Assembly (NCBI GenBank): GCA_030606215.1
Contig: JAUWGW010000022.1
Coordinates: 1 to 28,118, forward strand
DNA length: 28,118 nt
Reading direction: 5' to 3'
Source: a bacterium
Lineage (GTDB): Bacteria > NPL-UPA2 > JAUVJM01
The position numbers were made by a program, and so were the translations under genes. The notes beneath the pieces were generated by a model that saw only the letters and a list, made by a program, of their open reading frames with translations, made no database searches and was not told the origin of the DNA. This document shows, piece after piece, positions 19,130 to 27,970 of the stretch (position 1 is its first letter; the number at the start of each line of letters is the position of its first letter).

Positions 19130-20167
19130 GTGAAAATAGGGATGATGACTGCGTGGAACACGGATAGTGGAGTTGCAGTCCATGCTGAACCAGTTGCGAA
19201 AGCATGGATTGAGATGGGGCACCAAGTTACAATCTTCAGTCACATAAAAGAGGATTTTCACGGTGAAGGTTTCACGGATAAAGATGAAGATTATGTGAGA
19301 AGATGTTTTGGGACAAGGAAAACAAATTATTTTGACCCAACACCTATATTGACGAGACAATTTGATATTTTCGTCGTCCAGGACCTTAGCATGCTCCCGG
19401 TGGATAATCTCGCAAAAATCTTCCCGCTTATTCGCAGGACTGCAAAAACTGTACATATTGCCCATGAGAATGCACTTCCAGAAGAAGCCTGGTTTTACCA
19501 GTTTGAATGGGATAAGGTGGTTCATTTCTGTAGAAGGCAGACTTTCCTGGATACCGTCTATCCGGATGGCGAGTTGATACATTTCCCCTGTTTCCCTATA
19601 AGGAAGAAGGATAAGGTTGAAGCAAGGAAAAAGCTTAATTTACCTCTTGATAAGAAGATAGTTTATCAGTTCTGTCAAAGGGGATATAGACCATTCCTGA
19701 GAGAACTGCCCGGTGAGTTAAAAGAGCAGGATGTGCTTGTTATTCTGATACCGCCGGATTATGAGTTTCTGGAAGAGGAGAATCCTCCAAGGTGGATGAT
19801 TGTGCGGAGGGAGGAACCTCTGTCTCGTGAGAGATTTGACGATTATCTGTTTGCATCTGATGCTGTGGTACTTCATAAGTTCCAGAGCAGATATCGAGCA
19901 GTTGTCTCGTCAACCGTATTCCAGGCGCTGGGAGCAGGTTGTCCTATTCTTGTTCCCGGACAGTCGGATTTCTTTTTCCCTTTCAAAGAAGAAGTAATCA
20001 GGTATGCTGATTTTGAGGATTTAAAGGAGACACTTACCGACCTTTTTAAAGATGGGGAAAGATATAAGATGCAGAGGGAAAGAGCTGAGAGTTTCGCCAG
20101 AGAGAATTCACCTGAGGTTATAGCAAAAAAATTCATTGAGGTATTCAATTCGTTAGAACATGCTTGA
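19130..20167 (+). CDS. GT4-like glycosyltransferase (GT-B fold)
   Basis: A 345-residue protein starting at GTG directly after the previous stop, with a G-rich ribosome site (GGGGGAGGGG) just upstream. The N-terminus MKIGMMTAWNTDSGVAVHAEPVAKAW resembles the glycine loop and helix of GT4 enzymes. FDIFVVQDLSML and HIAHENAL lie in the acceptor domain. The C-terminal domain is weaker, with ASDAVVLHKFQSRYRAVVSSTVFQALGAGCPILVPGQSD, where the usual Glu of the donor site is replaced. It is likely a diverged GT4 mannosyl- or glucosyltransferase. Its 8-base overlap with the GH130 gene (ATGCTTGA) suggests both act on the same, probably mannose-containing, glycan. Confidence 0.7.
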   Translation: MKIGMMTAWNTDSGVAVHAEPVAKAWIEMGHQVTIFSHIKEDFHGEGFTDKDEDYVRRCFGTRKTNYFDPTPILTRQFDIFVVQDLSMLPVDNLAKIFPLIRRTAKTVHIAHENALPEEAWFYQFEWDKVVHFCRRQTFLDTVYPDGELIHFPCFPIRKKDKVEARKKLNLPLDKKIVYQFCQRGYRPFLRELPGELKEQDVLVILIPPDYEFLEEENPPRWMIVRREEPLSRERFDDYLFASDAVVLHKFQSRYRAVVSSTVFQALGAGCPILVPGQSDFFFPFKEEVIRYADFEDLKETLTDLFKDGERYKMQRERAESFARENSPEVIAKKFIEVFNSLEHA

Positions 20168-21035
20168 GAAATTTGAAGGAAACCCAATACTTAAGCCGAT
20201 TCCTGAAAATTCGTGGGAATCGAGATGTGTTTTTAACTGTGCCTCATTTTATGATGGGGGGAGAGCGCATATTGTTTACAGAGCTATGGGGGATGACAAT
20301 ATTTCCAGGTTCGGGTATGCCTCATCTTCTGATGGTTTCCATATAGATGAGAGGCTGCCGCAGCCAATATTTTCCCCGGATAATGAGTTTGAGGCGAAAG
20401 GATGTGAAGACCCAAGGATAACAAAAATTGGGCAGGAATATTTCATGTTCTATACCGCATTTGGAGAAACTGCTCAAATCGGGCAGGTTACAATAAAGGT
20501 TGATGATTTCCTTAACAAGAGATGGGACTGGGGTAAGAGAAGATATCCTTTCCCGGGAGTTAACAATAAGGATGTGGTTATATTACCTGAGAGAATAAAT
20601 GGTAGATGGGTGATATATCACAGAATCCCGCCGCATATCTGGGTTTCCTATTCTAATGACCTCCACCACTGGAGAGATTCAAATATTATTATGATGCCGA
20701 GAGGAAATAGCTGGGAGAAACTGAAGATAGGAGGAGGAGCTCCACCTGTGAAGGTGCCAAGAGGGTGGCTATTCATCTATCATGCAGTGGATGAAACAAA
20801 AATTTACAGACTTGGTCTTGCTCTGATTGCGCTGGATGACCCGGAAATGATAATTTATCGTTCAAGAGAACCAATCCTGGAACCTGATAAGGAATACGAG
20901 AGAGAGGGAGATGTTCCCAATGTTGTTTTCACATGCGGCGCATTTGTAAAGTGTGAGAGACTATTTGTCTACTACGGTGGGGCTGATAAAGTCATCTGCG
21001 TCGCAACACAGAAACTTGATGAGATTCTGCCATAG
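20160..21035 (+). CDS. GH130-family mannoside phosphorylase/mannosidase
   Basis: A 291-residue five-bladed propeller-type enzyme. The diagnostic motifs are FNCASFYDGGRAHIVYRAM (25-43), CEDPRIT (82-88, with D84 the predicted catalytic acid), KDVVILPERINGRWVIYHR (about 136-155), GGGAPP (193-198), YHAVDETKIYRLG and DVPNVVFTCG near the end. Members phosphorolyse or hydrolyse beta-mannosides. The two-residue phosphate clamp that separates phosphorylases from hydrolases cannot be judged without alignment. No signal peptide is present, so it acts in the cytoplasm. It is the last gene of the nine-gene operon that begins at 12306, and a mannose-containing product or intermediate is therefore plausible. 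Confidence 0.88.
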   Translation: MLEKFEGNPILKPIPENSWESRCVFNCASFYDGGRAHIVYRAMGDDNISRFGYASSSDGFHIDERLPQPIFSPDNEFEAKGCEDPRITKIGQEYFMFYTAFGETAQIGQVTIKVDDFLNKRWDWGKRRYPFPGVNNKDVVILPERINGRWVIYHRIPPHIWVSYSNDLHHWRDSNIIMMPRGNSWEKLKIGGGAPPVKVPRGWLFIYHAVDETKIYRLGLALIALDDPEMIIYRSREPILEPDKEYEREGDVPNVVFTCGAFVKCERLFVYYGGADKVICVATQKLDEILP

Positions 21036-21086
21036 TCCGGATTTATTCCCCACTTTTGAGACTTTCCCGGAAGGTTAGCTTGGCCG

Positions 21087-22128
21087 TTCGCGCATGAAAC
21101 AGACAACTTACAGAATCATCGGGGTCGCAATGTGGGCCGTTCTGTTGCTGGTTCTTGGCTGTGGTACCGATGCCCCTAACGAAAGAAAAGAGACGGAGGA
21201 GCTCAGCAGACGGGTGACTCAGTGGCACGAGGCTGTGGAAGCGGGAGCTGCTAGCGCCGCAGTGCAACTGGCCACCGAAATCTGTGGCAGTATACCGTCT
21301 TCCCCTTTGCAGCCAGCATATCTCAGGCTATGCAAGGAGAACGGCATAAACCCTGACTACCTGGAGGCTGGCTTCAATGTGTGGGACTTCCAATCTTGGA
21401 GGCACGCTTTTTTCTTCAAGAAACTTGCTCACCGTATCGTGAGCGAAGCCGAGGAGGATCATCCTCCAATCTCTGCACTGTTTACGGCAGTCCGTGGACG
21501 GATAGAGCCTTTGGAACCGCCGAAGGGAAATATATTATGGCCTTATACAATATGGCATTTGAAGAAAGGCGTGTGCGACCGACAGGCATGGGTCTTGTGT
21601 GAGTTAGCATATCAGTTTGGATACGAAACCCAGATTGTGTACCTCCGGGACCCCAAAACGTTGGTTTCACCACACACAATCTGCGAGATCAGAAAAGGAA
21701 ACGAAAAATGGGTTGCCGATCCGTATTCAGGTAAGCTCCTCCCAAACGTATCCGTTGCGGATCTGGCTGCTGATACACAACTGGCTGCGTCTACTTGGCC
21801 AGACAAAAATGATTGGCAAGAAGCAATCAAGAAATCAGCCTATTGGCTCCCTGCATGTCCACAGGATTATTGCCAGAGAAACCAACTGCTACGACACAAA
21901 GTGCAGCGCATATTGGGAGAGCACTGTCCTCGCTTTGGTCAGTTTCCTGCTGACCGACTGAATAAGTACGTGTCGCTGACAAGACAGAAGGATCGATCTT
22001 TTCCGTACCAGTTCTGGTTCTATCCTTTTCGTTTGCTGCGCTCTCAGATGGCTATGACGATGAACAGAAAAGTGCGCGAACAAGGCACTCCAGCGGACGC
22101 GGACAAGCCGCGCCGCTGAGCTCAAGCG
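21087..22128 (+). mobile_element. Solitary integron gene cassette
   Basis: The unit is a single gene followed by an attC-like site, bounded by G^TT junctions. At the left, GTTCGCGC (21086-21093) stands directly before the ATG. At the right, the R'' core is GCGCGAAC (22074-22081), its exact reverse complement, and the right core is GTTAGGG (22128-22134). This is what integrase-mediated insertion predicts: in the circular cassette the left end joins the attC and completes a matching R' core. The gene has no clear promoter or ribosome site and is visibly richer in G+C than the AT-rich DNA to its right. No integrase gene or second attC site was found in the window. Confidence 0.78.
21094..22119 (+). 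CDS. Transglutaminase-like lipoprotein (cassette-borne)
   Basis: A 341-residue protein. A lipoprotein signal peptide ends in LVLGC with the lipidated Cys at 23. The central part shows the papain-like transglutaminase triad in order: VCDRQAW (C161), SPHTICEI (H194) and KWVADPYSG (D209), with normal spacing for the family. This suggests a peptidase, transglutaminase or related acyl-transfer activity outside the cytoplasmic membrane. The N-terminal (25-150) and C-terminal (220-341) regions are not recognised. The gene lies inside an integron cassette, its ATG directly follows the left junction, and its TGA (22117-22119) lies inside the attC hairpin, as is common in cassettes. Base composition differs from its neighbours, which supports horizontal transfer. 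Confidence 0.82.
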   Translation: MKQTTYRIIGVAMWAVLLLVLGCGTDAPNERKETEELSRRVTQWHEAVEAGAASAAVQLATEICGSIPSSPLQPAYLRLCKENGINPDYLEAGFNVWDFQSWRHAFFFKKLAHRIVSEAEEDHPPISALFTAVRGRIEPLEPPKGNILWPYTIWHLKKGVCDRQAWVLCELAYQFGYETQIVYLRDPKTLVSPHTICEIRKGNEKWVADPYSGKLLPNVSVADLAADTQLAASTWPDKNDWQEAIKKSAYWLPACPQDYCQRNQLLRHKVQRILGEHCPRFGQFPADRLNKYVSLTRQKDRSFPYQFWFYPFRLLRSQMAMTMNRKVREQGTPADADKPRR

Positions 22129-22134
22129 TTAGGG
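22074..22134 (+). other. attC: attC recombination site
   Basis: The site is about 61 bases long. The cores are GCGCGAAC (R'') and GTTAGGG (R'). Between them an inner stem pairs CAGCGG (22091-22096) with CCGCTG (22113-22118) and CGCGG (22098-22102) with CCGCG (22108-22112) around the loop ACAAG. One unpaired A at 22097 sits where attC sites carry extrahelical bases. The right flank CTGAGCTCAAGCGTTAGG strongly resembles the right half of known attC sites such as that of aadA cassettes (from memory). The outer L boxes pair poorly, which is the main weakness. Confidence 0.78.
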
Positions 22135-22143
22135 ATATATAAT

Positions 22144-22254
22144 ATGACAACAAGACAACTGAAAAGAACACCTGATTTTAAGCAGTTTATTAAGGTTTTG
22201 AAGCGGGAAGGGAAACCTGCTTATGAGACAGTTTGGTATTCAGGAAGCTGTTGA
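22144..22254 (+). pseudogene. 5' remnant of a URO-D-family gene
   Basis: A 36-codon frame begins 16 bases after the cassette junction with a good ribosome site (AGGGA). Residues 7-25, KRTPDFKQFIKVLKREGKP, match the N-terminal helix pattern of uroporphyrinogen-decarboxylase-family proteins (about PDFxxxLxVLRREGxPDxVPxYE). After GKPAYE the match ends and a stop follows in the tail ETVWYSGSC. No continuation was seen in the other frames. The gene was therefore cut off, probably by a deletion or insertion that brought in the AT-rich DNA to the right. The call rests on a short pattern recalled from the family. Confidence 0.5.
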
Positions 22255-22271
22255 AAAATAGAAAATTTATT

Positions 22272-22796
22272 ATGGAAAGAGAAAAAATATTCGATAGAAA
22301 AAGACATGAAAATAGACAGGATTTAACAGGTGAACATTTTTTAGGTGATTTAGGACAGATTATACTTTTAATTATATTTTTAGCATTATGGATAGTTGAT
22401 TCATTTTTCATCAACTATTCAAACTTTATTTCAAAGTATATTCCATTATTTGTAAAAACACCATTATCAATTATAATTCTGTTCAGTGCAGGATATTTAG
22501 CAAAAACTGGTCTAAATATAGTATTTGGCGAAATTCGAGAGGAGCCAAGCGTTATTAAAAAAGGAGTTTTCGGTGTAGTTCGCCATCCTATATATCTTGG
22601 ATCTATATTATTTTACCTTGGTTTGTTAATATTCACTTTTTCTATTATGGCAACAATTATTTGGATTATTATTATTGCCTTTTATTGTTTTATCTCAAAA
22701 CATGAAGAAAAATTACTTTTAGAAAAATATGGGAAAGATTATGAAGATTATATGAGAGAAGTTCCAATGTTGATTCCTCGAATAAAAAGAAAATAA
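22272..22796 (+). CDS. ICMT/PEMT-family membrane methyltransferase
   Basis: A 175-residue membrane protein. I start it at ATG 22272 (MEREKIFDRKRHENRQDL) rather than at TTG 22233, because the first 13 residues of the longer form overlap the upstream remnant and fit no family pattern. Hydrophobic segments lie at about 28-48, 60-80 and 112-140. The catalytic C-terminal motif is GVFGVVRHPIYLG (about 98-110), followed by KHEEKLLLEKYGKDYEDYM (SAM and product site). This is typical of isoprenylcysteine carboxyl methyltransferase-like and phospholipid methyltransferase-like proteins. The substrate in bacteria is usually unknown. The gene is strikingly AT-rich, unlike the cassette beside it, so it may have a separate origin. 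No clear ribosome site is visible. Confidence 0.82.
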   Translation: MEREKIFDRKRHENRQDLTGEHFLGDLGQIILLIIFLALWIVDSFFINYSNFISKYIPLFVKTPLSIIILFSAGYLAKTGLNIVFGEIREEPSVIKKGVFGVVRHPIYLGSILFYLGLLIFTFSIMATIIWIIIIAFYCFISKHEEKLLLEKYGKDYEDYMREVPMLIPRIKRK

Positions 22797-22892
22797 CTTA
22801 ATATCGATTTTCAAGTAAGAGACAATATATGTTTAATGGTACATTAAGTTTATTGCACTTAAGCCCTGTCATGTCTTTCTGACCGAATCTTC

Positions 22893-22921
22893 TTGACATA
22901 TAACTACAATATATTTACACT
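22893..22921 (+). promoter_or_regulatory. Sigma70-like promoter of the brnT-brnA locus
   Basis: TTGACA (22893-22898), a 17-base spacer and TACACT (22916-22921). Predicted transcription starts near 22928, at the ATG of the brnT remnant itself, so brnT would be read from a leaderless or nearly leaderless transcript and brnA from an ordinary one. Confidence 0.65.
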
Positions 22922-22927
22922 GTATGT

Positions 22928-23023
22928 ATGAAAGTGCTTAAGTTCACATGGGATATTAGAATTATTTCAGCGAGGAAAGCAACGAAAAAGGAACAAAAAG
23001 TATATACAGGGGGAAGACAATGA
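22928..23023 (+). pseudogene. brnT: brnT toxin gene with internal in-frame deletion
   Basis: A 31-residue frame joins the two ends of a BrnT toxin. The N-terminus MKVLKFTWD matches the start of BrnT proteins (about MxxxFEWDxxK). It is followed directly by IRIISARKATKKEQKVY, the conserved C-terminal segment. Full BrnT proteins have about 90-100 residues, so roughly 60 central residues, including the HGVSFEEA-type helix and most of the RelE-like ribonuclease fold, are missing without a frameshift. The stop overlaps the brnA start in an ATGA, the usual brnTA junction. The toxin should be inactive, although the short peptide could still be made and might bind BrnA. Confidence 0.72.
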
Positions 23024-23238
23024 GAAAAGAATATGATTTCTCAAAAATGAAAGGGTGGAAAAATCCCTATGCCAGGAGACTGAAGAGACAGATCACTATT
23101 CGAATGGGAATCGACATAATTGATTACTTTAAGCAATTGGCAAAGGAAACCGGGATCCCGTATCAGAATCTGATCAACTTGTACTTGAGGGATTGTGTCC
23201 GGTCGCATCGCAAGATTTCTATAAAGTGGGCATCATAG
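23020..23238 (+). CDS. brnA: BrnA-family antitoxin
   Basis: A 72-residue protein. It begins MRKEYDFSKMKGWKNPYARRLKRQITIRMG, the standard BrnA start, and continues with IDIIDYFKQLAKETGIPYQNLINLYLRDC, a ribbon-helix-helix-type segment. BrnA neutralises the BrnT ribonuclease and represses its own promoter. The family ending (about HRKxxxxW) is present as SHRKISIKW. GGGGGA at 23009-23014 is a strong ribosome site. The gene looks intact and full length, although its toxin partner just upstream is internally deleted, so it now stands as an orphan antitoxin and DNA-binding regulator. Confidence 0.85.
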   Translation: MRKEYDFSKMKGWKNPYARRLKRQITIRMGIDIIDYFKQLAKETGIPYQNLINLYLRDCVRSHRKISIKWAS

Positions 23239-23256
23239 AATGGCCTGCATAACAAA

Positions 23257-23466
23257 TTACTTTTTTACTAAATATTCGGTTGGAATATCAAGAGCCTTTG
23301 CGATTTTCTCAAGATTCTTCAAGCCTATGTTTTTCTCCCCTCTTTCTATCTGTCCAACATAGGCTCTGTGGAGGTCTGCTTCAAGAGCAAGCTGCTCCTG
23401 GCTCCAGCCATATTTCGCACGACATTCTCTTATTTTAAAACCTACCCGCTTGTTAATTTCAGACAT
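23257..23466 (-). CDS. XRE-family helix-turn-helix regulator
   Basis: A 69-residue protein that is almost entirely one HTH domain: VGFKIRECRAKYGWSQEQLALEADLHRAYVGQIERGEKNIGLKNLEKIAKALDIPTEYL. The WSQEQLA helix and the RAYVGQIERGEKN recognition helix are of the type found in restriction-modification controller (C) proteins and small phage-type repressors. It probably binds as a dimer to the dyads just upstream (23503-23600) and controls its own promoter and the divergent plus-strand promoter. No restriction or methylase gene is present nearby. It is convergent with brnA, with an 18-base gap. Confidence 0.9.
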   Translation of the reverse strand: MSEINKRVGFKIRECRAKYGWSQEQLALEADLHRAYVGQIERGEKNIGLKNLEKIAKALDIPTEYLVKK

Positions 23467-23502
23467 CTGGACTCACATCTGTAACCAAATGTAATATCTT
23501 TA

Positions 23503-23521
23503 CACTGTCAACCTGACAGTG
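23503..23521. promoter_or_regulatory. Operator-like dyad at the XRE transcription start
   Basis: A perfect inverted repeat CACTGTCA-ACC-TGACAGTG. It covers the expected start site of the XRE transcript (about 23517). It also contains a TTGACA on the minus strand, but no -10 box at the right distance serves it. The half-site ACACTGT also occurs at 22917-22923, over the -10 box of the brnTA promoter, so the XRE protein might act at both. Confidence 0.55.
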
Positions 23522-23523
23522 GA

Positions 23524-23552
23524 ATTTTATTCCTATGCAATCAACAAGTCTA
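23524..23552 (-). promoter_or_regulatory. Promoter of the XRE regulator gene
   Basis: On the minus strand TAGACT (23547-23552), a 17-base spacer and TAAAAT (23524-23529). Both boxes differ little from consensus, and the predicted start falls inside the CACTGTCA dyad, as expected for autorepression. Confidence 0.5.
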
Positions 23553-23566
23553 CTGCCTATAGGTAG
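23553..23566. promoter_or_regulatory. Operator-like dyad A between divergent promoters
   Basis: CTGCCTATAGGTAG is palindromic in 6 of 7 pairs. It abuts the -35 box of the XRE promoter. It shares the core TACCTATWGG with the dyad at 23589-23600, 35 bases away centre to centre, so the two look like paired binding sites of one dimeric regulator. Confidence 0.5.
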
Positions 23567-23575
23567 CGAAAATTC

Positions 23576-23604
23576 TTGACATAGATACTACCTATTGGTA
23601 TCAT
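23576..23604 (+). promoter_or_regulatory. Divergent plus-strand promoter with embedded dyad B
   Basis: TTGACA (23576-23581), a 17-base spacer and TATCAT (23599-23604). The dyad TACCTATTGGTA (23589-23600) occupies the spacer and touches the -10 box, so a bound regulator would block it. The expected transcript starts near 23611 and leads, after about 200 bases, to the CFI-box protein gene. Confidence 0.6.
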
Positions 23605-23638
23605 AAAAAGAAATTTAATGGAAGCTACTGCAGATTAA

Positions 23639-23794
23639 ATGCGAACTCGACGAAATCCCTTTGAGGAGCTTAAGTGCTCGCCAATGTTTTTCTCTGGGAG
23701 CTGTACTCAGGACATGTTTCGCAATAGTTTTAAAGCAAAAGTCTCTGTCTCAGCAATAGAGGAAGGGGAAAGCAGTTGTCGTAAGACTATGTAG
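23639..23794 (+). CDS. Doubtful small ORF, 51 codons
   Basis: It begins MRTRRNPFEELKCSP and ends 15 bases before the CFI-box gene. It directly follows a six-codon frame (23618-23638, TAA-ATG junction) just downstream of the divergent promoter. I recognise no family, no ribosome site is obvious, and the residue mix (four Cys, many Ser) is unremarkable. It could be a leader peptide, a remnant of a gene once regulated by the XRE protein, or noise. Confidence 0.2.
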   Translation: MRTRRNPFEELKCSPMFFSGSCTQDMFRNSFKAKVSVSAIEEGESSCRKTM

Positions 23795-23809
23795 AAGAGG
23801 GGAAAGGGA

Positions 23810-24583
23810 ATGAACATAAGTAGAATTTCATGTCGGCCTTTGTTAAGAATAACAGGATTGCTTCTGATTATAGGAGTTTTAGGTTTCGTATTAGTCAGAT
23901 TCTTGCCTGGGATTGGCGTAGCAGCCCCAAATGACATAATAGTAACCTTAACTGCTAGCTGTAATCTATATTCTGGTAGCTCACGCGTTTTGGACCTAAT
24001 GATTACTGAGCCTACTGGAGAGGTGTGCTCTTGCTGGAATGATACGACTGCAATAGGGGGATGGATGAGTTGCAGTACAGACCAGCAGCAATACAACTTA
24101 GCTGATGCCATGGATGGGTATTATTATATTCAAGTTCTAGTCCCGTCAGGTAGTAGCGTAATAGGGGATACAAGCATCTTATGTCAAGTTACTGTATTAC
24201 TGTATGAGGGCACAAGCAACGAAACAATTATTGCTTATGGGCCATTTATGTTTACTGAGACATGGACAGAAGTTGGCTGCTTCAAAATGCCAGAGGCAAT
24301 AGAAGTTTCGTGGGGTGACATAGTGGAAGGTGGTGGTTGTTTTATAGCAACAGCGGCTTATGAGACATCGTTTGCTGAAGAGGTTAAGACGCTATCAAGA
24401 TTTAGAGATGAATTTTTGTTAAAAAATACATTTGGGAGATTCTTTGTTAAGACCTACTGCAGAATATCCCCGCGCATTGCCAGGTCTATTAAGAATACGC
24501 CTTGGTTAAGAGGACTCGTTCGATTGCATCTGAAACCGGTAGTACTCATTGCCAATTTGTTTGTTTCAGATGACACAAATTAA
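23810..24583 (+). CDS. Exported protein with C-terminal CFI-box domain
   Basis: A 257-residue protein. A signal peptide or anchor lies at residues 10-32, followed by GVAAPND, a possible cleavage region. Residues 40-160 are beta-rich with many Ser and Thr and several Cys (CSCWND, CFKMPE), resembling an extracellular domain, but I recognise no named fold. From C177 it carries GGGCFIATAAYETS, then FRDEFLLKNTFGRFFVKTY and SPRIARSI, and ends with LRGLVRLHLKPVV. This is the CFI-box C-terminal domain, about 80 residues, found at the ends of many exported bacterial proteins and thought to be a sorting or attachment region. AGGGGAAAGGG gives a strong ribosome site. The next gene starts inside its end (14-base overlap), so the two are coupled. 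Confidence 0.8.
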   Translation: MNISRISCRPLLRITGLLLIIGVLGFVLVRFLPGIGVAAPNDIIVTLTASCNLYSGSSRVLDLMITEPTGEVCSCWNDTTAIGGWMSCSTDQQQYNLADAMDGYYYIQVLVPSGSSVIGDTSILCQVTVLLYEGTSNETIIAYGPFMFTETWTEVGCFKMPEAIEVSWGDIVEGGGCFIATAAYETSFAEEVKTLSRFRDEFLLKNTFGRFFVKTYCRISPRIARSIKNTPWLRGLVRLHLKPVVLIANLFVSDDTN

Positions 24584-25472
24584 CTATTTAAAAATCTACT
24601 CAATTTTCGCCTTATCCCTTCTATCTTCTTGTCACTTTGCTCGTGTTCAATCCAATATTAACAATGTCTCCTTTGATGTGATTTACAAATTCTCTCTAAC
24701 AGGGAAGACTTCTAAGATAAAATTTATCTGTCTCATCCCCAAAACCATAGAAGATAGACAGTCAATACTTGATGTAAACTATTCGGTAACCCCTTCAAAA
24801 ATCTATGACGTAGAGGGAAATAGATACGCTGAATTTGTCTTTTTGAATCCAGAACATGATTTTGAAATTAAGATAAGCGTGAAGGCACAACTAATTAGAT
24901 ATGATTTGGATACTGCCCTTAACAATTTCAAAGCAACTGATGGAATGATTCCAATAAAATATTTAATTGAGGAAAAGTATTTAGAGAAAAACAATCCATC
25001 TATATTAGAAGCTTCTAAAAGGAGCACTGGAAAGACTCAAATTGATACTATAGAAAATATTTATTATTACGTATTAGAAAATATTGAATATGCAGGGTAT
25101 AACCCAACAGATCTGGGAGCAGCAAAGGCTCTCAAATTGAAAAAAGGCGATTGTAGTGAATTTACTGACCTTTTCGTGGTTATTTGCAGGACAAAAGGCA
25201 TTCCTGCCAGGGTTATTGTAGGTTACAACATTGAATGTGAGAACACTCCTAAACATGCTTGGGCTGAAATTTATATAAAAGGATGTGGGTGGGTTCCTTT
25301 TGACCCTACATTGGGTGAGTTATGGTTAGCATCTTTTGAGAGATTATCCCCAGAATATATATATCTGTCAAATGTCCGAAATGATAAAGTTCTCAATAAT
25401 CGTCACTATTATACATGTCGGTATTGGGGAGGTCCTGTCAAAGTAACAGATTCTTTCTCAACAAGGCAATAA
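24570..25472 (+). CDS. Transglutaminase-like lipoprotein
   Basis: I choose ATG 24570 (MTQINYLKIYSIFALSLLSSC) because it gives a clean lipoprotein signal with LSSC and C21. The longer frame from TTG 24549 would place extra residues before it. The mature protein has an N-terminal beta-rich region (30-150), then the transglutaminase core with triad C195 (GDCSEFTDLF), H229 (PKHAWAEIY) and D245 (PFDPTLG). ARVIVGYN and GCGWVPFDPT are typical of the bacterial transglutaminase-like peptidase/amidase group. It acts outside the cytoplasmic membrane. Because it overlaps the CFI-box gene, it may process or anchor that protein, which is inference. A few residues after the triad (LSPEYIYLSN; HYYTCRYWGG) are also normal for the family. 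Confidence 0.85.
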   Translation: MTQINYLKIYSIFALSLLSSCHFARVQSNINNVSFDVIYKFSLTGKTSKIKFICLIPKTIEDRQSILDVNYSVTPSKIYDVEGNRYAEFVFLNPEHDFEIKISVKAQLIRYDLDTALNNFKATDGMIPIKYLIEEKYLEKNNPSILEASKRSTGKTQIDTIENIYYYVLENIEYAGYNPTDLGAAKALKLKKGDCSEFTDLFVVICRTKGIPARVIVGYNIECENTPKHAWAEIYIKGCGWVPFDPTLGELWLASFERLSPEYIYLSNVRNDKVLNNRHYYTCRYWGGPVKVTDSFSTRQ

Positions 25473-25524
25473 AACTCTGGGGCAAAATTTCTACATTTAT
25501 TCCCACCATTATTTTCATTTTCTC

Positions 25525-25553
25525 TTGATTTCTGCCCTCCCGCTTGTTAAAAT
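25525..25553 (+). promoter_or_regulatory. Sigma70-like promoter of purL
   Basis: TTGATT (25525-25530), a 17-base spacer and TAAAAT (25548-25553), about 45 bases before the purL start. I see no purine riboswitch or obvious PurR-like dyad in the 37-base leader. Confidence 0.6.
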
Positions 25554-25597
25554 CCGAGCGTAGAACGTTTTGATGAGTATTTACTGGAGAAAAAAGG

Positions 25598-27970
25598 ATG
25601 TTGGAAAAGGTATTTCCTATAAGTCAGTTTAAAGAAGATAAGCTTCTTGAGAAGGAGTTGAGGAAGAGGAAGTTTGGTTTGACTCCACAGGAAGCAAGGA
25701 AGATTGTCTCCATCCTTGGCAGAGACCCAACAATTGTTGAGTGTTTCATATTTGATATTGAATGGAGTGAACACTGTTCATATAAGAGCAGCAGGAATGT
25801 GCTCAAGAAATATCTCCCCCTGAAAGCTCCAAATGTCATACAGAGTATAGAGGAGGATGCCGGAATTATTTATCTTACGACAATTGACGGGAAAAGATAT
25901 GGTGTTGTGATTGCGCATGAGAGTCACAATCATCCTTCACAGGTTCTCCCCGTAGAGGGTGCGGCAACCGGTATCGGCGGCATTGTCCGCGATGTTGATT
26001 GTATGGGTGCGAGGGTTGTGGCGGTAGCTGACCCGCTGCGGTTTGGAGACCCTGAGGGGGAGAATAGCGCGAGGGTAAAATGGATTGCAAGTGGTGTTGT
26101 GGATGGAATATGGGAGTATAGCAACGCACTCGGGGTTCCGAATATTGGTGGGGATGTCTATTTTGATAAATCGTTTGATGATAACTGTCTTGTCAATGTT
26201 GTCGCTGTTGGGATTATCAGGGAAGATGAGATAATTCACAGTTGCGCTCCGGAAGGAGCCGGCGAGAATGGATATGATGTCATTCTGGTTGGCAAACCTA
26301 CGGATGACAGCGGTTTTGGCGGCGTAACATTTGCATCAGAAATACTGGATGGAGAGAAGGAAGAAGAGAAAAAAGGAGCTGTCCAGGTTCACGACCCGTT
26401 TCTCAAGAATGTTTTGCTTATGCGCAAAGCAAATGAGTCAGTATGGAAACTTGCGCGGGAGAGAAGATTTGAGATTGGTTTTAAGGATTTAGGTGGTGGG
26501 GGATTAGCCTGTGCTTCGTCTGAAATGGGAGCCTCAGGAAACTATGGAATTGAAATAGACCTCGAAAAAGTGCATGTTTCCCTATCTGATATGCCACCTG
26601 AAGTGATAGCCTGTGGTGAGACTCAGGAGAGGTATCTTCTCATTGTTCCGCCTGAGTTGACGCAGGGAGTCCTTAAAATTTATAATGAGGATTGGGACCT
26701 GCCAAATATATATGAAGGAGCGAGAGCAGGGGTGATAGGGAAGGTTGCGCCGGGAGATAGATACATCCTCCGTTTCAAAGGTGAGAAAGTATGCGATATT
26801 CCTATACATGAGGTTACAAAAGGTGTTTTCTATGAGAGAGAAGCGAAGCCTGTAGTGAGACATTTGGCTGAACCGGAGTTTGAAATGCCGGCTGAGTTAG
26901 GGGATGTCCTTCTGAAAATATTGGGAAGTCCAAATGTCTGCTCTCGTGAGGGAATCTATCGTTTTTATGATACAGAGGTTCAGGGGAATGCAGTGATAAG
27001 ACCAGGAGAGGCTGATGCAGGAGTAATTGCCCCTCTTGAGGAAGAGGGGAGTATGGTTGGTGTGGCTTTAGCTGCTGATGGGAATCCTGTATATGGTTTG
27101 ATTGACCCATACTGGGGAGGGGCAACTGCAGTAGCTGAAGCAATGAGAAATGTGGCTTGTGTTGGAGCTGCACCAAGCGGGCTTACTGACTGTCTCAATT
27201 ACGGTAATCCGGAAAGAGGAGAATCCTTCTGGCAGTTTGAAAGAGGGGTTCGCGGTGTAAGTGATGCGGCTAAGAATTTGTGGCTTAAGGGGCATTGTGA
27301 AGTTCCTGTCCCGATTGTGTCGGGAAACGTGAGTTTTTATAACGAATCTGCACGAGGTGTGGCAGTAGCTCCATCTCCTATAGTGGCCTGTATCGGCATA
27401 ATTGAAGATTACAGTCACGCAATAACAATGAGGTTCAAGGAGAGTGGTAGCCGGATATACCTCGTCGGGCAGAGATATGATGAGCTTGGGGGTTCTGAAT
27501 ATTATCGCAGAGTATTCGGTGAACTCGGGAAAAATGTCCCGAAAGTTCGTTATGAGGAGGAAAGAGGGGCGATATATGGAGTCATAGATTGCATTCATAA
27601 AGGCTGGCTCAAATCTGCGCATGATATATCAGGCGGAGGACTTGCAGTAACACTCTCGGAGATGCTGGTTTGTGGGAGACATCCCCAGATGTCGACATAT
27701 AAAGGGGCCGAAATTGACCTCGAAAAGATAGATTCTCCTCTAAGAGATGATAAGAAGCTTTTCTCCGAATCCAGTGGTTTTGTCCTGGAAGTTCCACCTG
27801 AACACAGTTCGGGCGTTGAGAAGATTTTTGCGGATTATGGCTTAAAACTTTTTCATCTCGGTGGTGTGGTAGAGGAACCGTTTCTTACAGTCAAATCGGG
27901 GAAGGGGCAAATTCTGAGACTGTCCTTATCTGCAATGGAAAAAGCCTGGAAGAGCGGCTCCGCACTTTAG
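25598..27970 (+). CDS. purL: Phosphoribosylformylglycinamidine synthase subunit PurL
   Basis: A 790-residue cytoplasmic enzyme that turns FGAR, glutamine-derived ammonia and ATP into FGAM in purine synthesis. It has the N-terminal linker-like FGLTPQEARKI, the catalytic DIEWSEHCSYKSS (about 52-64), the ATP-site IAHESHNHPSQVLPVEGAATGIGGIVRDV (about 107-135) and a duplicated AIRS-type layout. KDLGGGGLACASSEMGASGN (about 298-317) and its C-terminal counterpart HDISGGGLAVTLSEM show the two pseudo-symmetric halves. This is the small form that works with separate PurQ (glutaminase) and PurS subunits, neither of which is in the window. The length is slightly above that usual for small PurL. GGAGAAAAAAGG gives a ribosome site for ATG 25598. 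It is a housekeeping gene standing at the end of accessory DNA. Confidence 0.95.
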   Translation: MLEKVFPISQFKEDKLLEKELRKRKFGLTPQEARKIVSILGRDPTIVECFIFDIEWSEHCSYKSSRNVLKKYLPLKAPNVIQSIEEDAGIIYLTTIDGKRYGVVIAHESHNHPSQVLPVEGAATGIGGIVRDVDCMGARVVAVADPLRFGDPEGENSARVKWIASGVVDGIWEYSNALGVPNIGGDVYFDKSFDDNCLVNVVAVGIIREDEIIHSCAPEGAGENGYDVILVGKPTDDSGFGGVTFASEILDGEKEEEKKGAVQVHDPFLKNVLLMRKANESVWKLARERRFEIGFKDLGGGGLACASSEMGASGNYGIEIDLEKVHVSLSDMPPEVIACGETQERYLLIVPPELTQGVLKIYNEDWDLPNIYEGARAGVIGKVAPGDRYILRFKGEKVCDIPIHEVTKGVFYEREAKPVVRHLAEPEFEMPAELGDVLLKILGSPNVCSREGIYRFYDTEVQGNAVIRPGEADAGVIAPLEEEGSMVGVALAADGNPVYGLIDPYWGGATAVAEAMRNVACVGAAPSGLTDCLNYGNPERGESFWQFERGVRGVSDAAKNLWLKGHCEVPVPIVSGNVSFYNESARGVAVAPSPIVACIGIIEDYSHAITMRFKESGSRIYLVGQRYDELGGSEYYRRVFGELGKNVPKVRYEEERGAIYGVIDCIHKGWLKSAHDISGGGLAVTLSEMLVCGRHPQMSTYKGAEIDLEKIDSPLRDDKKLFSESSGFVLEVPPEHSSGVEKIFADYGLKLFHLGGVVEEPFLTVKSGKGQILRLSLSAMEKAWKSGSAL

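Follow-up and report, generated by a model that had tools for sequence, protein, structure and literature searches.

Integron gene cassettes can settle away from attI. Three later papers (PMC12901181, PMC12444791, PMC11023631) credit Loot et al. 2024 with showing that cassettes integrate at chromosomal attG sites. Scattered CALINs that followed integrase loss have already been published for Xanthomonas (PMC12444791), and IntegronFinder 2.0 (PMC9024848) defines a CALIN as attC sites lacking an integron-integrase, with single-attC cases treated as possible true positives. The case described here is a known phenomenon in a new instance, one that is rarely this clear in so poorly known a lineage. 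It is a stray single-attC cassette of the CALIN/SALIN type, with no integrase or second attC nearby. The cassette lies in a window of 28,118 nucleotides, the whole stretch of DNA that was analysed (G000:C32:1-28118, forward strand), from a draft genome of 1.52 Mb in 34 contigs that is 93% complete. The lineage is uncultured, and our sample of the phylum consisted of nine genomes.

The cassette sits behind a GH130-family phosphorylase-like gene (20160-21035, + strand; Pfam PF04041, E=1.8e-60), the last gene of a glycosyltransferase cluster, whose stop codon ends at 21035. The next host gene is purL (25598-27970, + strand), and the cassette forms the first quarter of the 4.5-kb gap between the two. 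Placed by the G^TT rule, the edges of the mobile unit delimit 1042 bp on the + strand (21087-22128), with a G+C content of 51.6% against 40.7% upstream. The remaining variable stretch (22135-25597; G+C 35.9%) carries PEMT-like, CopG/BrnA-like antitoxin and second transglutaminase-domain genes. The PEMT-like methyltransferase gene and the antitoxin gene, which is without an obvious toxin partner, share a very A+T-rich segment at 22233-23240 (G+C down to 26%). The second transglutaminase-domain gene (24549-25472; PF01841, E=2.3e-26) lies 2.4 kb behind the cassette. A URO-D remnant, which a first-pass annotation of this DNA had named directly downstream of the cassette (22144-22253, 36 residues), was not confirmed: it matched neither Pfam nor NCBIfam.

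An Rfam scan of the window matched nothing, so we made a covariance model of our own; its 20 attC training sites belong to class 1 plasmid cassettes and to a single chromosomal array, with none drawn from G000. The model scored a site at 22075-22134 (+ strand) at 29.8 bits. The E-value is 1.4e-5 for the window and 7.6e-4 for the whole of G000, where the site ranks first of five attC matches. Placed downstream of the gene, it has the R''/L''/L'/R' architecture of an integron cassette (R'' CGCGAAC, L'' CAGCGG, L' CCGCTG, R' GTTAGGG), and its L''/L' helix shows the standard asymmetric bulge (CAGCGG-AC / G-CCGCTG). The bottom-strand fold was beaten by 5 of 200 shuffles (z -2.16). The stop codon of the cassette open reading frame (22117-22119) falls inside the attC, the left arm of which encodes the last residues of the protein. 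A hairpin ending in GTTAGGG and a lone cassette without an integrase had both been claimed from the sequence alone, and both claims hold: the hairpin ends at 22128-22134, no integron-integrase was found in the window, and the next attC match there is 18 nt long and scores 10.9 bits (E=0.88).

The two edges of the cassette match one another. The left edge, G^TTCGCGC (GTTCGCGC, 21086-21093, + strand), abuts the ATG at 21094 and is the exact complement, at all eight positions, of R'' (GCGCGAAC, 22074-22081). This is the match expected of a circular junction, and it bears out the eight-base correspondence across about 1 kb that had first drawn attention to the locus. GTT occurs just twice between the GH130 stop codon and the ATG, and an exact five-base extension of either occurrence would arise by chance with a probability of about 2/1024 (about 0.002). 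Removing the cassette leaves a left target half, TTGGCCG, cut after the G (21080-21086, + strand), and a right target half, GTTAGGG (22128-22134, + strand), which now serves as the R' of the attC. No more than 5 of 7 positions pair between this R' and R'', compared with 8 of 8 for the cassette's own left edge, which is what a circular arrival would give, with R' supplied by the target site. The left flank is unlike the attI edge found on contig C13 (see below), and the nine nucleotides before the GTT (AGCTTGGCC) stand among the highest-scoring 2.8% of GTT sites in likeness to an attC right arm while scoring below all arms in the model. On the right flank a start codon stands 9 nt behind GTTAGGG, as in a following cassette. 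For insertion at an attG, then, the G^TT edges are as expected, but the left flank bears a faint resemblance to an attC.

Neither outcome that the first-pass annotation had named as refuting it came about: the covariance search does give an attC score, and the nearest relative lacks the gene instead of carrying it with flanks but without the G^TT boundaries. In that relative, the sister genus G001, the GH130 orthologue is 79% identical and purL adjoins it behind a short GIY-YIG-like gene (named by eye); the cassette gene is missing. In G005, G006 and G003 different genes lie behind GH130, and the exact empty site, an uninterrupted TTGGCC-GTTAGGG (TTGGCCGTTAGGG), was not seen at the GH130-purL locus of the relatives examined. 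Judged by these comparisons, the cassette is absent from the relatives, yet the gap itself is variable and G001 has a different insert there.

We scanned the genome for a resident integrase with TIGR02249 and found no complete intI in G000. The sole integron-type match is a fragment on contig C13 that covers profile positions 251-314 (E=1.4e-29); the remaining tyrosine recombinases fall far under the cut-off, as they do in control genomes. G001 encodes a full-length intI (405.6 bits), to which the C13 fragment is 86% identical over 200 bp, after which about 1.1 kb is skipped in G000. The alignment resumes upstream of the intI start codon and ends ...TGTATGTTC in both genomes (...ATGTATGTTC), an end that is most simply read as the attI crossover point. 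The alignment thus indicates that an internal deletion inactivated the resident integron. What lies in the window is not a complete integron, which would place an intact intI and attI beside the cassette, and the fragment is on another contig.

The resident locus (G000:C13:62900-65350) retains the intI fragment and the conserved attI edge, and it has cassettes in two places, by this edge and past the intI 3' end; in G001, too, an attC-like site lies beyond the intI 3' end. The C13 cassettes carry a HicB-like antitoxin, a HepT-like toxin with a nucleotidyltransferase-like partner and, at the attI edge, an unassigned 201-aa open reading frame; in some of the attC sites of these cassettes, stem pairing or R' bases have gone. 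We looked into a particular relationship between the attC of the window and one on C13 near 63491-63550 and gave up the idea, as other attC sites align equally well or better.

The search for an integrase and further attC sites elsewhere in the genome, as the first-pass annotation had proposed, thus yielded the C13 fragment and four attC matches besides that of the window. Contig C9 holds two cassettes in tandem, for an Mrr-like nuclease and an unknown 333-aa protein, with edges matching at 7 of 8 and 8 of 8 positions; gene order upstream of the protease there differs in G001. On C19 a HAD-hydrolase cassette (edge 7/8) begins 5 nt behind the stop codon of an inositol-monophosphatase-like gene (named by eye), for which we sought an empty-site comparison and found no orthologue in the phylum's other genomes. 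Single-mismatch 8-mers are common over 3 kb, and the C9 and C19 edges count because they are positioned just before the open reading frame that ends at the attC. The HAD-hydrolase cassette is followed by a 201-aa open reading frame and a partial copy of the attC of the C13 HicB cassette; at G000:C19:750-900 this partial second copy runs into the left half of a different attC, as in a fusion of two cassettes.

The cassette gene (21094-22119, + strand) encodes a predicted lipoprotein of 341 aa, with the lipobox LVLG-C23 recognised by eye. It had been described as a transglutaminase-like lipoprotein; the match to PF01841 is weak (E=0.0084, 16.8 bits), under the Pfam cut-off of 23. Its likeness to the transglutaminase-like superfamily lies in an intact Cys161-His194-Asp209 triad in the expected order (GVC161DR, SPH194T, VAD209P), the positions of which are conserved across four domains from G037 that are homologous to it (E-values reaching 5e-12). 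It differs from that superfamily in its sub-cut-off score and in having homologous domains in only two other genomes of the 386 searched, G037 and G319, which belongs to the same family as G037. Wider searches of genome contigs and viral contigs, a PDB sequence search and a defence-family scan returned no match to the protein, and a single-sequence AlphaFold2 model (pLDDT 42.7) was too poor for a fold search. The product is probably a periplasmic transglutaminase-like lipoprotein, a function suggested by the triad, and through it a non-resistance cargo has joined a cell-surface polysaccharide locus.

We think it probable, short of firmly so, that a genuine integron gene cassette occupies 21087-22128, having entered as a circle, by integrase action, at an attG-like G^TT outside attI, and that the integrase was later lost. 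The folded attC of a circular cassette would have been recombined by an integron integrase with a G^TT behind GH130 rather than with the resident attI. The lineage's integrase would then have been lost, leaving on C13 the fragment with its 1.1-kb internal deletion, and with that loss the cassette would now stay in place unless an integrase acted on it in trans. There is no promoter room before the cassette ATG, so transcription of the gene most likely depends on read-through from the glycosyltransferase/GH130 operon. What the sequences show is the attC, the two edges, the broken intI, further cassettes in the genome and a relative that lacks this one; the circular form, the attG-type targeting, the succession of events, the read-through and the activity of the protein are inferred. 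Some caveats bear on this reading, besides the empty site not seen in a relative and the two flanks that would suit an array. The gap between GH130 and purL is wholly variable, and the cassette could therefore have come with other DNA; and the draft, at 93% completeness, may have missed an intact intI.

The first-pass annotation had offered insertion at a secondary site and the relic of a lost array as alternatives, and both still stand. If a small array once occupied the locus, with its neighbouring cassettes and any integrase since decayed or deleted and one complete cassette left, the rank of AGCTTGGCC among GTT sites, its identity to the end of attC arms in G003 C1 and G029, and the start codon 9 nt after GTTAGGG would all be accounted for, and cassette decay is evident in this genome on C13. 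Against such an array stand the want of a second attC in the window, a left flank below every arm in the model, and a locus free of integrase fragments. We regard a relic of this kind as the main rival, though an unlikely one; the dispersed cassettes on other contigs favour insertion outside attI.

It is improbable, in our judgement, that the cassette was carried in within a larger insertion spanning the whole 4.5 kb, with no integrase action here. The entire gap is indeed absent from G001, which has its own short insert. Differences in composition between parts of the gap (51.6% and 35.9% G+C) can be cited for that idea, and they also argue for separate arrivals; we noticed neither long terminal repeats nor a gene for a transposase or recombinase there. 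That the attC is a chance hairpin beside an ordinary gene, with no cassette at all, we consider extremely improbable. The bottom-strand fold alone lies merely 2.2 s.d. beyond shuffles, but the covariance score in the window, an independent 8/8 edge match right before the open reading frame, and the other attC matches and intI fragment in G000 all speak against coincidence.

Stray cassettes are widespread, and the window case is not exceptional. Among the phylum genomes, six of nine have attC matches at E up to 0.1, and a full intI was found in G001 only. In a survey of 117 genomes, 22 had attC matches with E no higher than 0.02, against about 2 expected by chance, and 18 of those 22 were without an intI match at 1e-60. 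A genome of another phylum assembled as one contig (G066 C1) carries two stray single cassettes with edges matching 8/8 and open reading frames of 270 and 290 aa; it gave no intI match at 1e-60, and its stray cassettes mean that draft assembly alone is insufficient to explain the pattern. In G006, where no full intI was found, two cassettes at unrelated loci (C135 and C84) are both preceded by the same 11 bases, GTATATTAATT, before the G^TT, and G003 C1 has the similar TATTAATTAATT; these sequences could be a lineage-specific attI/attG core.

Across the phylum, cassettes may usually become permanent genes by being inserted singly at many places in the chromosome, with the integrase lost afterwards, a suggestion we advance tentatively and rate as possible rather than likely. 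If it is true, the window represents one case of a genome-wide pattern. The value of the locus is as a natural, edge-resolved stray cassette in a genome with a broken integrase and a conserved attI edge, alongside an integrase-bearing sister genus. The putative order of events, from active integron through cassette scattering to integrase loss, becomes testable by strain comparison.

Like the CALIN and single-attC elements of IntegronFinder (PMC9024848), the window locus combines an attC and a cassette without an adjacent integrase; it adds matched edges and a broken resident intI, and it falls below the default two-attC threshold. With the attG insertions of Loot et al. 2024, to the extent that citing papers (PMC12901181, PMC12444791) describe them, it shares a chromosomal G^TT outside attI. 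As portrayed there, that work consisted of experiments in E. coli, whereas the window event is reconstructed from sequence in a lineage whose intI is broken. The scattered CALINs of Xanthomonas (PMC12444791) have in common with it the placement of cassettes at several loci away from intI and a progressive loss of integrase activity; they are clusters of two or more, whereas the window holds a single cassette, in an uncultured bacterium whose phylum was sampled here by nine genomes.
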